A DNA stretch of 64,000 nucleotides, taken from assembly GCA_913056235.1 (NCBI GenBank), contig CAJXMW010000002.1, positions 496,001-560,000 on the forward strand, read 5' to 3'. The notes under the pieces are model-generated. The model made no database searches. It worked only from the letters and a program-made list of their open reading frames with translations, and had not been told where the DNA came from. Below, one piece after another: positions 55,032-61,618 of this stretch. The position numbers and the translations under genes were made by a program. Source of the DNA: an uncultured Fodinibius sp. (GTDB lineage Bacteria; Bacteroidota; Rhodothermia; Balneolales; Balneolaceae). Numbering within the stretch: position 1 is the stretch's first letter; every line of letters begins with the position of its first letter.

Positions 55032-55060
55032 TTTAGCCTGATGATTCATCGTCAGCCTAA
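55032..55060. repeat. REP-like inverted repeat, copy 1
   Basis: TTTAGCCTGATGA, a four-base loop TTCA, and TCGTCAGCCTAAA's start form a near-palindrome. All but one base of this 29-base unit recurs at 57745-57773. It lies just downstream of the FrnE-like gene stop. No T-run follows on the minus strand, so it is more like an interspersed repeat than a terminator. Confidence 0.7.
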
Positions 55061-57359: not shown

Positions 57360-57569
57360 TTAATTTCCAAAGAAATCCAACACATTTTCCAGGGTGCTGG
57401 AATCTGTTTTGTACATCTCCGTGTAATGGCACTGGGTGCAGGTGATGGTGGTAAACTTCTGGTTTTGGATGTTGAAGAATTTGGAGAAAAAACCGCCGGT
57501 GCCGGAAACCTGACCTGTTTCAAATTGACGGTTGCTACACTTGGGACACTTCCAGTTGCGATGTTGCAT
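57360..57569 (-). CDS. COG3478-type zinc-ribbon protein
   Basis: 69-residue protein with two CxxC knuckles, CPKC at 8-11 and CTQC at 44-47, and the middle segment GGFFSKFFNIQNQKFTTIT, typical of the small 'nucleic-acid-binding protein containing a Zn-ribbon' family. Function is unknown. It begins 14 bases upstream of the VOC gene and could be read with it. Confidence 0.85.
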   Translation of the reverse strand: MQHRNWKCPKCSNRQFETGQVSGTGGFFSKFFNIQNQKFTTITCTQCHYTEMYKTDSSTLENVLDFFGN

Positions 57570-57680
57570 GGATTAATGGGTTTATTCGAATGTTGGTTAC
57601 CAGCTCATATTAGATATTGGGAGCCGGAAATCAAAGGATTGGAAAAGGTGAGCAAAGATGAAACGGCAGAAGGGAGTGTT

Positions 57681-57773
57681 GCCCACAGATGAACCAGTGG
57701 GCTAAATCTTATTTAAAGTCCGTTTAAACGGACTTGATTCCTAGTTTAGCCTGATGATTCATCGTCAGGCTAA
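57681..57773. repeat. Composite REP-like element with three inverted repeats
   Basis: Three hairpins follow one another. First GCCCAC (57681-57686) with GTGGGC (57697-57702). Second a perfect 20-base palindrome at 57716-57735 (AAGTCCGTTT/AAACGGACTT). Third the 29-base unit TTTAGCCTGATGA...TCGTCAGGCTAA at 57745-57773, nearly identical to the copy at 55032-55060. Such a mosaic of palindromes is typical of REP/BIME elements that are spread by RAYT transposases; no transposase gene is present here. Confidence 0.7.
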
Positions 57774-57819
57774 TATTGGCAATAATACTTAACATGCAGG
57801 CCAGATTGATAGTCCCGCT

Positions 57820-57840
57820 GGACGGATTGACAATCCGTCC
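57820..57840. repeat. Perfect inverted repeat
   Basis: GGACGGATTG, one A, CAATCCGTCC: ten-base perfect arms around a single base. It belongs to the same repeat cluster, 46 bases after the composite element. No T-run follows, so it is not a simple terminator. Confidence 0.65.
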
Positions 57841-58124
57841 TACAATGGTCTAAAGCATATTTCGATTCGCAGTACTGTACAGAGCAAGTACTACGCGGAG
57901 TGACTGCTCTGTGCTATGTAGTTGGAGTGCATAATGCAAAGGGAGCTTATAACTTTGGAATAGACTTCGCCCCGAACTAAGTGGTCGCTTGGCGATTCTA
58001 TCATAAAGAATTGGCTGCTGGTTAAAACTGGTTCTAGCCTGACACATGAACTACGTTTTGGTAATGGGAGAAAAATTTATTTACAATTCAGAAATTAAAA
58101 AATAAACATCAAGATTGTCTTTTT

Positions 58125-60041
58125 ATGAAACTCAAAAAAGTAACCATCGAAAATTTTCGGTCAATTAAAGAGCAAACTATAGAAATTGATGACTATAATT
58201 GTTTGGTGGGTCCCAATGGAGCAGGTAAGTCAACGGTATTAAATGCCTTGAATGTATTCTTCAGAAACAATAAAGAAGCAAATACGGATATTTCTACTTT
58301 AACTGAGGAGGATTTTCACTACAAAAACACAGATGAACCTATCCGTATTTATTTAGAGTTCACAGATCTTTCAGAGGAAGCGAAGCAAGATTTTAAAGCT
58401 TATTATAGAAACGAAAGTCTGCATATTTATGCTGAAGCGTTATGGAATGAAAACTCTCAAAAGGCAAAGATTAAACATTATGGCCAGCGCGAAGTCATTG
58501 ATGATTTTGCTATTTACTTTAGAAAAGATAAGAATGATGCCTATGCCAGTGAGCTGAAAGAAACTTATCAGAATATTAGATCTGAGTATAGTAACCTTCC
58601 AGATGTATCAGTGAAAGCTGATATGAAAAATGCTTTAAGAGAGTATGAGGAAACTCATCCAGAGCAGTGTTCCTTGAAACCGAGCGAAGATCAGTTCTAT
58701 GGAGTCTCAAGAGGAGCAAACAAGCTAGAAAAATATGTGCAGTGGGTATATGTTCCAGCAGTTAAAGATCCTTCATCTGAAGAGGAAGAAGCGAGTAAAA
58801 CTGCGCTAGGCCAATTACTGGATAGGACTATTAGGGAAAAAGTTGATTTTGAAGATCCAATCCAAGAATTAAAAAATGAACTAGCTCAAAAGTACCAGGA
58901 TTTATTAGATGAAGAGTCAGATGTTTTAGAGGATATTTCAAATTCTTTAGAGCAAAGGTTACATGATTGGGCACATGCAGGGACAAAATTAGAGTTAGGA
59001 TGGCACTATGATTCAGATAAATCTGTCAGGATTAAAGAACCCAATGCGAAGGTTCGCCTTGGGGAAGATAATTTTGTGGGTGAAATTGCAAGATCAGGTC
59101 ACGGTCTGCAAAGGTCATTTATAATATCATTATTACAGGAACTGGCTGAAGGAAAAGAGGATGAGTCACCAACACTTTTGTTAGGTTTTGAAGAACCTGA
59201 ACTTTACCAACATCCTCCGCAAGCTAGACATATTCAAAATGTATTAGAGGGTTTATCTAAATCCAATTCACAAATATTGTTGACTACTCATAGTCCTTAT
59301 TTTGTGTCAAGTAAAGGTTTTGAGAATATTCGGCGCTTTTCAAAAAATAATGGGGAGGGCACAGAGATTAAATCAAGTTCAATTCAAAAGATAAACGAAC
59401 TGATTGCTAATTCATTAGGTGATGATCCACGTACCAACACCTCATTTATGGCTGCTATGGAACAGATTATGCAACCATCTCAAAATGAATTATTCTTTTC
59501 AAAGGTTGCAATTTTAGTAGAAGGCCAAGAAGATGTAGCTTATTTGACGGCTGAATTATTAAAGAAAGACTTATGGAAAAAATTTAGGAAGCTAGGCTGT
59601 CATTTTGTGATAGGTGCAGGTAAAAGTAAAATGAGTAGGCCTTTAGCAATCGCAAAAGAATTAGAAATACCAATATTTTTAATGTTTGATGCAGATACGG
59701 ATAAAAAGGGAAATCAGAAAAAAGATAACAGATGTTTGTTAGGTATTTCTGAAAACGATTCTATAAATCCACTACCCGAAGAAAATATATTTGAGAATAA
59801 CGTTATTGTATGGCGTACGAATATTGGAGATGAGGTTAAAATGGAATATGGCTCAAAAGATAAATGGAACCAATATTACGATAGCATAAAGCAGGAAAGA
59901 GCTATTGAGGATATTACCAAAAAGAATTGGTATCGTATATCAACTATGTTAGAGGAATTATCCGATGAAGGATGGAATTCAGAATTATTAAATAAATCTG
60001 TTAATAGTATTCTCGAATTTGCTGAAGGAGTTAATTCATAA
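58125..60041 (+). CDS. OLD-family ATP-dependent endonuclease
   Basis: 638-residue protein with an SMC-like ABC ATPase half and a TOPRIM nuclease half. Walker A GPNGAGKST at 29-37 after MKLKKVTIENFRSIKEQ; Walker B LLLGFEEPELYQHP near 350-363; H-loop LLTTHSPYF; TOPRIM acidic site ILVEGQED near 463-470 and DAD at 522-524. OLD proteins act as nucleases in phage exclusion; the class paired with a UvrD helicase is Gabija GajA, but no helicase gene is here, so it is a solitary OLD. Base composition is markedly more AT-rich than rmuC and other neighbours, and REP-like repeats lie upstream: probably acquired. rmuC follows after 170 bases. Confidence 0.9.
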   Translation: MKLKKVTIENFRSIKEQTIEIDDYNCLVGPNGAGKSTVLNALNVFFRNNKEANTDISTLTEEDFHYKNTDEPIRIYLEFTDLSEEAKQDFKAYYRNESLHIYAEALWNENSQKAKIKHYGQREVIDDFAIYFRKDKNDAYASELKETYQNIRSEYSNLPDVSVKADMKNALREYEETHPEQCSLKPSEDQFYGVSRGANKLEKYVQWVYVPAVKDPSSEEEEASKTALGQLLDRTIREKVDFEDPIQELKNELAQKYQDLLDEESDVLEDISNSLEQRLHDWAHAGTKLELGWHYDSDKSVRIKEPNAKVRLGEDNFVGEIARSGHGLQRSFIISLLQELAEGKEDESPTLLLGFEEPELYQHPPQARHIQNVLEGLSKSNSQILLTTHSPYFVSSKGFENIRRFSKNNGEGTEIKSSSIQKINELIANSLGDDPRTNTSFMAAMEQIMQPSQNELFFSKVAILVEGQEDVAYLTAELLKKDLWKKFRKLGCHFVIGAGKSKMSRPLAIAKELEIPIFLMFDADTDKKGNQKKDNRCLLGISENDSINPLPEENIFENNVIVWRTNIGDEVKMEYGSKDKWNQYYDSIKQERAIEDITKKNWYRISTMLEELSDEGWNSELLNKSVNSILEFAEGVNS

Positions 60042-60211
60042 ATGTAATGGCAGAGGATGACACCATCTGTCACCCATCTCCATTATCTTACCGCCACACT
60101 GGAAACTGGCTGGCCGAACCGTGATATTGCTACCTAAGGCGAAAGCTTCGCGGAGTAGAGCTCAGATCCGAACTAACCTTCAACTTTTAACCTCTAACCT
60201 ACAACACCCAG

Positions 60212-61618
60212 ATGGAATTGATTTCAATCTTGTTTATAGTCATTGGCGTTATCCTTGGCTACGCCATCGCTCATTTCAAGTATAAAAGCAGTCAGGCACT
60301 TAGCAAAGAGGAAGCCGACGCATTGGAGGCCGAACGTGAGCAGGCGATGCAGACTATCTCACGGCTGGAGGAGCGCAACGAAAATCTGTCCCAGCAGCTT
60401 GAGGATGCCGAGGCCGAGGAGAAAGAAGCCACTCGTCACGCTAATGAGGCCGAGAAGCAGCTGGCCGAACTCAATGCCGACTACCGCAATCTGAAGGAGC
60501 GGCTCAGCGAGCAGAAAGAGGAGATGCAGAACCTACAGGAAAAGTTCAAGGACGAGTTTGAGAACCTGGCCAACAAGATCCTGGAGGAGAAGTCCCAGAA
60601 GTTTACCGAGCAGAACAAGGAAAAGCTGGATCAGCTGCTGAAGCCCCTCGGTGAAAAGATGGAGGAATTTAAGAAGAAGGTCGAGGAGACCCACAAAGAA
60701 GATATCGAGGGACGCAGCTCACTGAAACAGCACCTGGAGCATCTGAAAGAGATGAACCAGCAGATGGCCAAGGAGGCGAAGGATCTGACCAAAGCACTGA
60801 AGGGCGAATCCAAGACGCAGGGCAGCTGGGGCGAAGTGATCCTGCAGCGTATCCTCGAGAAGTCGGGGCTTACCAAGGGACGCGAATACGAAATTCAGGA
60901 AAGTCACACTACCGACGAAGGACGGCGCCTGCAACCGGATGTGGTGGTCCACCTGCCGGACGAGAAGCGTTTGGTGATCGATTCCAAAGTTTCGCTGACG
61001 GCCTACGAGCGAATGACCTCGGCCGAGGACGAAGACGAGCGGGAAAGCGCGCTCAAGCAGCACGTGGCATCTTTGCGAAGTCATGTGAAGGGGCTCAGCA
61101 GCAAAAATTACGAGCAGCTTTACGGCGGCAACAGTCCCGATTTCGTGCTGATGTTTGTGCCTATTGAATCGGCCTTTGGCGTGGCGTTGCAGCAGGACAC
61201 GAGTCTCTACTATGACGCTTTCGACAAGAATATCGTGATTGTGAGTCCTTCTACGCTGCTGGCTACGCTGGCCACCATCGACAGTGTCTGGAAGCAGGAG
61301 TATCAGAGTAAAAATGCGCAGGAGATCGCCGAGCGCGGCGGTGCACTGTATGACAAGTTTGTACTGTTTGTGGAGAGCATGCAGGATATCGGCCAGCGTA
61401 TCCGTCAGACCCAGGAAAGCTACGACGAGGCGATGGGACGCCTTTCCGAAGGGCGCGGTAATGTAATCCGTCAGGTGGAGATGCTGCGGGAACTGGGCGC
61501 CAAATCCAGCAAGAATATGCCGGCCGAATTAGCCGACCAGCATGAGCTGAGCGATGGGGAGGAGCAGGCCGCTGACGGTGACGAGGAGGAATCGCCGGAG
61601 TTTGAGTTTAACGATTAA
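60212..61618 (+). CDS. rmuC: DNA recombination protein RmuC
   Basis: 468 residues: an N-terminal membrane helix (about 3-20), a long coiled coil to about 180, then the restriction-endonuclease-like RmuC domain: QGSWGEVILQRILEKSGL, RLQPDVVVHLPDEKRLVIDSK with the nuclease-fold acidic/Lys core, and IVSPSTLLATLATIDSVWKQE. RmuC limits inversion at short repeats in E. coli; its molecular action is not known. It has higher GC than the OLD gene before it. Acidic C-terminal tail. Co-transcription with the OLD gene is possible but the 170-base gap with a small stem argues for its own start. Confidence 0.93.
   Translation: MELISILFIVIGVILGYAIAHFKYKSSQALSKEEADALEAEREQAMQTISRLEERNENLSQQLEDAEAEEKEATRHANEAEKQLAELNADYRNLKERLSEQKEEMQNLQEKFKDEFENLANKILEEKSQKFTEQNKEKLDQLLKPLGEKMEEFKKKVEETHKEDIEGRSSLKQHLEHLKEMNQQMAKEAKDLTKALKGESKTQGSWGEVILQRILEKSGLTKGREYEIQESHTTDEGRRLQPDVVVHLPDEKRLVIDSKVSLTAYERMTSAEDEDERESALKQHVASLRSHVKGLSSKNYEQLYGGNSPDFVLMFVPIESAFGVALQQDTSLYYDAFDKNIVIVSPSTLLATLATIDSVWKQEYQSKNAQEIAERGGALYDKFVLFVESMQDIGQRIRQTQESYDEAMGRLSEGRGNVIRQVEMLRELGAKSSKNMPAELADQHELSDGEEQAADGDEEESPEFEFND

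Follow-up and report, generated by a model that had tools for sequence, protein, structure and literature searches.

OLD-type ATPase–nucleases are of a kind known to fight phages, and one gene of this family lies directly before rmuC in the window analysed here, a 64,000-nucleotide stretch of DNA from an uncultured Fodinibius sp. The locus raises the question of whether this gene acts on its own, belongs to one of the known multigene OLD systems, or forms with RmuC a functional pair that would be new, as a preliminary description had suggested.

The OLD gene

The gene occupies positions 58125–60041 of the forward strand and codes for a protein of 638 aa, which matches the Pfam domains AAA_15 (PF13175, E = 2.3e-55) in its ABC ATPase part and OLD-like_TOPRIM (PF20469, E = 4.2e-11) in its Toprim part. 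The N-terminal ABC ATPase displays what we take to be a Walker A motif (GPNGAGKS, residues 29–36, 58209–58232), an ABC signature-like motif (SGHGLQR, residues 324–330, 59094–59114), a Walker B region (residues 350–360, 59172–59204) and an H-loop (TTHS, 59283–59294), and the C-terminal Toprim core (residues 457–524, 59493–59696) contains the glutamate and DxD motif of the family, all on the forward strand. In an alignment of the window gene with relatives from 16 of the 19 relative loci (the partial relatives L073, L081 and L082 were excluded and are also absent from the OLD tree), G29, N31, G32, G34, K35 and S36 of Walker A, G325, H326, G327, Q329 and R330 of the signature, and E466 and D522-x-D524 of the Toprim core are invariant in 17/17 rows; residues 353–366 of the Walker B region and T388 and H389 of the H-loop are likewise invariant. 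The reading frame and these family-invariant residues are intact in the window. At the level of sequence, domains and residues confirm a genuine OLD-type ATPase–nuclease gene, for whose product nuclease and ATPase activities and a role in defence are predicted.

Composition, distribution and origin

With a GC content of 34.7% (z = −4.8) and a GC3 of 26.9% (z = −4.2), both relative to 40 other ORFs of at least 200 aa in the window, OLD has the lowest GC of the 41 sizeable window ORFs, bearing out the earlier impression that it is far more AT-rich than its neighbours. Close full-length relatives are absent from the 11 congeners, a strong relative is missing in the other 57 of the 58 genomes of the relatives search, and strong relatives occur in 3 of 393 other genomes of the phylum (4 of 394 including its own). 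There are, nevertheless, 19 relative loci at 40–51% identity spread over many phyla, which are intermixed in the OLD tree. Such rarity in the phylum and absence from congeners, combined with 40–51% identical copies across phyla, suggests horizontal acquisition, and this conclusion is supported by the foreign composition of the gene. Nine GenBank phage records, including Burkholderia phage KS5 and P2, match OLD at about 25–31% identity, and 363 plasmid records also match it, every one at less than 60% identity; two plasmid records, chosen for the highest scores, were opened. A phage-borne origin was considered and set aside, a pattern scan of viral_contigs having yielded no case.

A variable site upstream of rmuC

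The left boundary of the site is a small gene on the reverse strand (57360–57569, 69 aa), located in the congeners by tblastn, whose zinc-ribbon-like label is our reading of its CxxC pairs; the copy in G002 gave no NCBIfam match. Besides this gene, the neighbours of OLD are rmuC and a gene that we read as glyoxalase-like. The site could be judged in 9 of the 12 genus genomes, with G001 and G011 having other left neighbours and G004 being cut off. Between the zinc-ribbon-like gene and rmuC lie OLD in G000, Gabija genes in G008, an OsmC-like gene in four congeners (G002, G003, G005 and G009) and no ORF of at least 100 aa in G006, G007 and G010. The Gabija pair of G008 is complete (GajA, 1.7e-209; GajB, 4e-169), is situated between a zinc-ribbon remnant and rmuC, and is AT-rich too (GC 33% and 31%); on its left, the sequence aligns with the G006 allele, which lacks Gabija, and on its right lies the conserved rmuC upstream element described below. 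OLD and gajB stop 54 nt and 55 nt, respectively, before the motif CACACTGGAAACTGG. The congeners thus retain the flanks without OLD, the empty sites that had been proposed as a check, and differing defence cargo between conserved flanks together with cargo-free alleles marks the interval as a hotspot, with two defence cargoes making a small sample. Given a different phage-defence system at the equivalent site of a congener, we regard the neighbourhood as the result of a favoured insertion site and not of a new partnership.

The preliminary description had further placed OLD behind a REP-like cluster (57681–57840) and proposed acquisition at a repeat hotspot. A cluster of five inverted repeats is indeed present at 57688–57912. 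Of these, the hairpin at 57746–57773 is REP-like and dispersed in low copy; the repeat stretch has 8 other partial matches in the genome, and 7 of them overlap this hairpin. The hairpin GGACGGATTGACAATCCGTCC (57820–57840), in contrast, is unique at up to 2 mismatches and hence belongs to no dispersed family. The stretch 57571–58124, which holds the repeats, found no counterpart by blastn (E ≤ 0.01) in any of 16 rmuC regions, and the longest exact direct repeat between 57901–58125 and 60039–60215 is 9 bp, a length that 6 of 50 shuffles match or surpass; repeat-driven insertion was rejected on these grounds. Thus, acquisition at a hotspot is supported, and repeats as its cause are not. No target duplication or mobility gene accounting for the insertion was found, and the promoter and terminator scan remained at shuffle level.

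rmuC and its upstream element

The rmuC gene (60212–61618, forward strand; Pfam RmuC, E = 1.7e-113) follows OLD on the same strand after a gap of 170 bp, and 69 of 92 genomes of the family contain it. OLD and rmuC are separated by an intact conserved element (60058–60128, forward strand; TGCCA-like..TGTCA .. ACTGGAAACTGG .. GTGATATT), which occurs upstream of rmuC in 11 of the 12 genus genomes, being missing from G001, and may represent a promoter or regulatory site. One exact pattern of the element, used to look for a genome-wide regulon, gave 0 matches; the window copy itself deviates from this pattern and is also unmatched.

None of the 24 OLD-family loci, some of which have short flanks, showed an RmuC. 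Conversely, a window-type OLD was found in 1 of 53 rmuC upstream regions, from 53 of the 69 rmuC-bearing family genomes (G004 with only 290 bp upstream), by phmmer at 1e-4 with OLD, GajA and GajB as the only queries, a search that did not link OLD to GajA and that distant OLDs could therefore escape. The window RmuC matches the PADLOC model of RT-associated RmuC (5.4e-165), which we read as general RmuC homology. Since RmuC is seen in none of the OLD loci and rmuC is widespread with its own upstream element, the functional pairing proposed earlier is unsupported: the adjacency does not recur in the loci surveyed, relatives keep rmuC and its flank without OLD, and OLD genes elsewhere are unlinked to rmuC. 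An OLD–rmuC operon or pair was accordingly rejected, and RmuC is best explained as a bystander.

Neighbourhoods of OLD relatives

Several relatives of the window OLD clade adjoin Mre11-like and Rad50-like genes. Both are present in 4 of 22 relative loci and in 1 of the 2 plasmid loci, which were picked for high scores, and a Rad50-like gene alone is found in one more of each; most of the 22 loci have no such pair within the available DNA. A PF13514 search of the own genome of the window gave nothing obvious, the best match being an 817-aa ORF (E = 4e-8). PADLOC-matching genes adjoin the relatives in L065, L071, L075 and L152, in a scan of 10 neighbouring proteins from 6 of the 22 loci; L064 and L067 adjoin housekeeping-type genes, and for some relatives the neighbour is gatB or a gene resembling that of DNA polymerase III alpha.

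We tentatively raise the possibility that this OLD clade is an unrecognised one whose natural partner might be an Mre11–Rad50-like (YhaO/YhaN-like) complex. The three-gene form would then constitute a distinct anti-phage or anti-plasmid system, found on plasmids and in several phyla, and the window gene would be a version without partners, located at a defence hotspot. Recognising or holding DNA ends would in that event fall to the Rad50-like complex, with OLD as the effector that cuts.

Proposed function and alternatives

We propose that OLD is probably a horizontally acquired stand-alone (class 1-like) anti-phage nuclease housed in the variable site between the zinc-ribbon-like gene and rmuC. 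From what is understood of the family, a helical insertion domain of the ABC ATPase would mediate dimerisation, and the Toprim domain would cleave nucleic acid through two-metal catalysis once licensed by the ATPase, which would sense the state of infection. Analogy with P2 Old and Gabija suggests a phage block of RecBCD-type end processing as the likely trigger; in a search for RecB and RecD, the own genome was found to encode RecB-like and RecD-like ORFs. As the class 1 OLD of E. coli, YbjD/OldB, is described in PMC13261556 as RecBC-independent and as retaining its phage phenotype without the Toprim domain, the trigger and the cutting step could differ in the window OLD.

Other readings have to be weighed against this. 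A chance single insertion at a site that is no hotspot, with the G008 Gabija being coincidental, would fit the two defence cargoes among nine judgeable genomes and the lack of a target duplication; however, two different AT-rich nuclease systems ending 54–55 nt from a common motif and the OsmC-like gene within the interval in four further congeners speak for a hotspot, and the Gabija allele in particular makes chance insertion the less likely reading, so that we hold it improbable. OLD is also unlikely to be a remnant, possibly inactive, of a larger module (e.g., OLD–Mre11–Rad50-like) that lost its partners. The loci with both partner-like genes would favour such an origin, but the frame and invariant residues of OLD are intact, most relative loci have no such pair, with L064 and L067 beside housekeeping-type genes, and the PF13514 search gave nothing obvious.

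A housekeeping role in DNA repair or the cell cycle, as reported for the archaeal OLD Cran1 in PMC12796447, seems decidedly unlikely: the Mre11-like and Rad50-like neighbours could mean repair, and gatB or the polymerase gene adjoins some relatives, but the confinement of strong relatives to so few genomes of the phylum, the foreign composition, the congeners without OLD and the restriction or defence neighbours of some relatives all point away from it. Highly improbable, and largely refuted, is a functional two-gene defence unit of a new OLD class with, for instance, cutting or nicking by OLD and resection by RmuC. The close spacing on one strand, the RT-associated RmuC match and the known defence role of an RmuC domain in Shield ShdA (PMC10270631) would agree with it; against it stand the counts in both surveys, the conserved element separating the genes, Gabija at the equivalent place in G008 and the strongly different compositions of OLD and rmuC.

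A stand-alone OLD has wider bearing, as such isolated genes are described as rare and little understood, with a figure of 0.45% of bacterial genomes cited in PMC13261556. The locus adds a clade of OLDs that can occur on their own and pinpoints a position in the chromosome at which this genus takes up OLD-type defence genes, and its evidence speaks against a tempting OLD–RmuC story. The recurring OLD, Mre11-like and Rad50-like neighbourhood is a candidate for a further OLD-based system, bearing on how OLDs sense unprotected DNA ends.

Comparison with known OLD systems

A PADLOC scan of 10 neighbouring proteins (OLD, rmuC and the zinc-ribbon peptide standing outside it) gave no match for 10/10 at 1e-5, and no UvrD, RT or AriB partner was thereby detected near OLD. 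Shield likewise involves an RmuC domain, that of ShdA, and an RmuC-domain protein adjoins the window OLD, but the latter is the product of a widespread gene not confined to defence islands. A retron-associated (class 3) OLD was rejected for want of an RT among these neighbours; the retron_eff_Eco8 model scores 73.7 bits on the window OLD against a cut-off of 250. The ATPase part also matches the AriA model of PARIS (E = 2.4e-55); however, PARIS has its Toprim in a separate protein, AriB, whereas the window OLD carries it in the same chain and has no AriB-like protein among the 10 neighbours. Gabija (class 2 OLD, GajA and GajB) shares the OLD architecture, and in G008 its two genes sit at this very site of the chromosome. 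In contrast to Gabija with its adjacent GajB-type UvrD/PcrA/Rep-like helicase, the next gene here is rmuC; the window OLD is 26% identical to the G008 GajA, and its profile score is 145 with Gabija versus 171 with P2 Old. Membership in Gabija was rejected for want of the helicase, in agreement with the earlier view that OLD lacks a UvrD partner.

Class 1 OLDs (P2 Old, Thermus scotoductus OLD 6p74 and E. coli YbjD/OldB) are single genes, as here, and share the N-terminal ABC ATPase and C-terminal Toprim. They are defined in PMC10568477 as isolated genes without a helicase partner and away from other defence genes, and the glyoxalase-like, zinc-ribbon-like and rmuC neighbours conform to this isolation, whereas some relatives of the window OLD adjoin Mre11/Rad50-like genes. 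Class 1 proteins also lack the class 2 C-terminal helical domain and are about 50 aa shorter on average; the window OLD, at 638 aa versus 528 for the 6p74 chain and 586 aa for P2 Old, is not shorter, about 100 of its C-terminal residues lie beyond the stretch matched to 6p74, and its AlphaFold model (pLDDT 70.6, pTM 0.45), used for fold ranking only, is too weak to judge that domain. The P2 Old profile match has a probability of 99.5%, with the window clade separate from P2 Old in the tree. In a PDB sequence search, the class 1 OLD 6p74 is the best match (8e-32), followed by PtuA (2.7e-13) and GajA (about 2e-10), and 6p74 is also the top Foldseek match of the AlphaFold model.

A probable defence insertion hotspot upstream of rmuC

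The ORF at 58125-60041 (+) codes for a 638 aa OLD-type ATPase-nuclease, a new OLD family member lodged at a probable defence insertion hotspot. Its protein combines an AAA_15 domain (residues 1-394, E = 2.3e-55) with an OLD-like_TOPRIM domain (residues 457-524, E = 4.2e-11) in Pfam searches, and its top PADLOC model is Old (1.1e-56), with AriA and many GajA models ranking next. Because the residues of Walker A, the signature motif, Walker B and the H-loop, as well as Toprim E466, D522 and D524, do not vary across a 17-sequence alignment (the window protein plus 16 relatives), the gene looks intact. The preliminary description had called it strongly AT-rich relative to its neighbours, and this is borne out: its GC content of 34.7% is the lowest among the 41 window ORFs of at least 200 aa (z = -4.8 against the other 40; GC3 26.9%, z = -4.2), with the dip at 58-60 kb being visible in a 1 kb profile. 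On the same strand, rmuC (60212-61618, +) follows 170 bp 3′ of it.

The rmuC gene is present in 69 of 92 family genomes, including all 12 of the genus. Among the 53 of these 69 whose upstream regions were surveyed, the window OLD occurs in one (the window only) and GajA/GajB in one (the congener G008). A zinc-ribbon-like gene (57360-57569, -) or its remnant lies upstream of rmuC in 9 of the 12 genus genomes. The cargo between the two is OLD in the window's own genome, a Gabija pair in G008 and an OsmC-like gene in G002, G003, G005 and G009 (the G002 copy matching OsmC-type NCBIfam models only below cut-offs); no ORF of at least 100 aa is found at the site in G006, G007 and G010. G001 and G011 show different neighbours at rmuC, and the G004 contig begins 290 bp before it. 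The G008 pair (locus L101, contig G008:C33, 1950-5818 when reversed) is complete, with GajA and GajB matching PADLOC models at 1.7e-209 and 4e-169, and very AT-rich, with GC contents of 33% and 31% compared to 52% for rmuC. Its left flank is alignable to the Gabija-free G006 allele and appears eroded, as only a 25 aa zinc-ribbon match was found there. These alleles, a small sample with two defence cargoes only, suggest a probable insertion hotspot immediately ahead of the region that controls rmuC.

Of the earlier proposal of a defence gene at a repeat hotspot, the insertion hotspot is supported but a role of the repeats is not. The longest direct repeat spanning the OLD insertion is at shuffle level, and a blastn comparison of 57571-58124 with 16 rmuC regions yields no hit at E ≤ 0.01, giving no sign that repeats caused the insertion. 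Five inverted repeats lie within 57688-57912. Since seven of the eight other partial matches of 57681-57960 in the genome overlap the hairpin at 57746-57773, the label REP-like suits this low-copy element, but not the GGACGGATTGACAATCCGTCC hairpin, which is unique in a genome search allowing up to 2 mismatches. The dispersed hairpin, of the TTAGCCTGATGATTCATCGTCAGGCTAA type, is also seen at 55032-55060 in the window, alongside 7 other partial genomic copies.

An element at 60058-60128 (TGCCA-N5-TTGTCA-like, then ACTGGAAACTGG and GTGATATT) is kept in the same place upstream of rmuC in 11 of the 12 genus genomes, G001 being the exception; the stop codons of OLD and gajB lie 54 and 55 nt, respectively, before its CACACTGGAAACTGG core. 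Elsewhere in the family, the genes preceding rmuC are alpha/beta-hydrolase-like or, in genus g19, grpE-dnaJ-like (names read from sequences). Because of the latter arrangement, the element is perhaps a candidate heat-shock-type promoter.

Distribution and origin of the OLD gene

OLD matches at E ≤ 0.001 occur in 15 of 58 genomes, own included, among which a strong full-length match is confined to the own genome, the next best (G011) having 26% identity. At 1e-60, the family profile matches 4 of 394 phylum genomes, again including the own, and one of the other three (G428) is clearly more distant. Relatives with 40-51% identity are encoded at 19 loci elsewhere (three partial or split), from planctomycete, Nitrospira, Desulfobacteraceae, Gammaproteobacteria, Gemmatimonadetes, Acidimicrobiaceae, Flammeovirgaceae and other assemblies, and these groups are intermixed in the OLD tree. 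Weaker relatives are frequent on plasmids (363 records, all below 60% identity). The patchy spread, the relatives in many groups, the mixed tree and the AT-rich composition together point to gain by horizontal transfer.

Genomic neighbours of OLD relatives

A functional OLD-RmuC pairing, which had also been suggested, is not supported by these data: with phmmer at 1e-6, none of 24 OLD-family loci (the 19, three from the phylum-genome profile search and two plasmids) yields an RmuC hit, several of them having short flanks (e.g., L066, L074, L081, L082, L153). With the window OLD also in just one of the 53 rmuC upstream regions, we rejected the pair. In Shield, RmuC domains act in defence, and its authors separate them from housekeeping RmuC (excerpts of PMC10270631). 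The window RmuC matches a PADLOC RT-associated RmuC model at 5.4e-165, a score that we attribute to general homology, given how common rmuC is in the family. The OLD gene is ordinary in kind and informative in location, rather than part of a new OLD-RmuC system.

In 4 of 22 OLD loci (the 19 and the three phylum-genome loci), namely L065, L066, L070 and L076, Mre11-like (metallophosphoesterase) and Rad50-like (AAA_27-type) genes adjoin OLD, the Pfam domain check covering the L065 pair only. L073 has a Rad50-like gene beside OLD, and the remaining 17 show no Mre11-like or Rad50-like gene within the available DNA. Of two plasmid loci selected for high score, that of Roseibium (L159) has both genes and that of Paracoccus (L160) a Rad50-like gene, with an intervening 375-aa ORF that is Mre11-like by eye only. 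We posit that OLD and these neighbours, presumably YhaO/YhaN-like, might constitute a three-gene system, a candidate that recurs on plasmids and across several phyla. PADLOC also places SNF2-helicase and type IIG-like genes near the L065 relative, and TmtA (L071), ZorD-like (L075) and HamB-like helicase (L152) genes near others. The OLD-Mre11-Rad50 combination was not found in the literature searched, including portions of PMC7049728, PMC10586767, PMC12839542 (which cites an earlier ABC-ATPase survey) and PMC6755086; we do not claim that it is unreported.

Mode of action and comparison with known systems

Among relatives, P2 Old is reported to be lethal in a recBC background and to block lambda (PMC10568477), and the proposed target of Gabija is linear DNA that remains when RecBCD is missing (PMC12407980). 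Activated P2 Old is said to cleave a host tRNA, while YbjD/OldB does not depend on RecBC and can do without its Toprim domain (both from PMC13261556). The host likely encodes a RecBCD-type complex, as a UvrD_C/PDDEXK ORF adjoins a RecD_N-containing ORF in its genome. By analogy, the most likely scheme is that an OLD ATPase dimer would sense blocked end processing and then license Toprim cutting.

The best match in a PDB sequence search is the class 1 protein 6p74 (8e-32), followed by PtuA (2.7e-13) and then GajA (about 2e-10). 6p74 also ranks top in Foldseek (7.2e-15), at a TM of about 0.3 and with a weak model (pLDDT 70.6, pTM 0.45). Profile comparison gives probabilities of 99.5% for P2 Old and 99.1% for the G008 GajA; in the tree, neither P2 Old nor GajA groups within the window clade, but their branches are long and the program marks their positions as unsure. 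A P2-Old-like OLD from another genus of the family (L041, G030) groups with P2 Old. Class 1 OLD proteins are described as encoded by single, isolated genes (parts of PMC10568477 and PMC7049728), and the window OLD is likewise such a gene.
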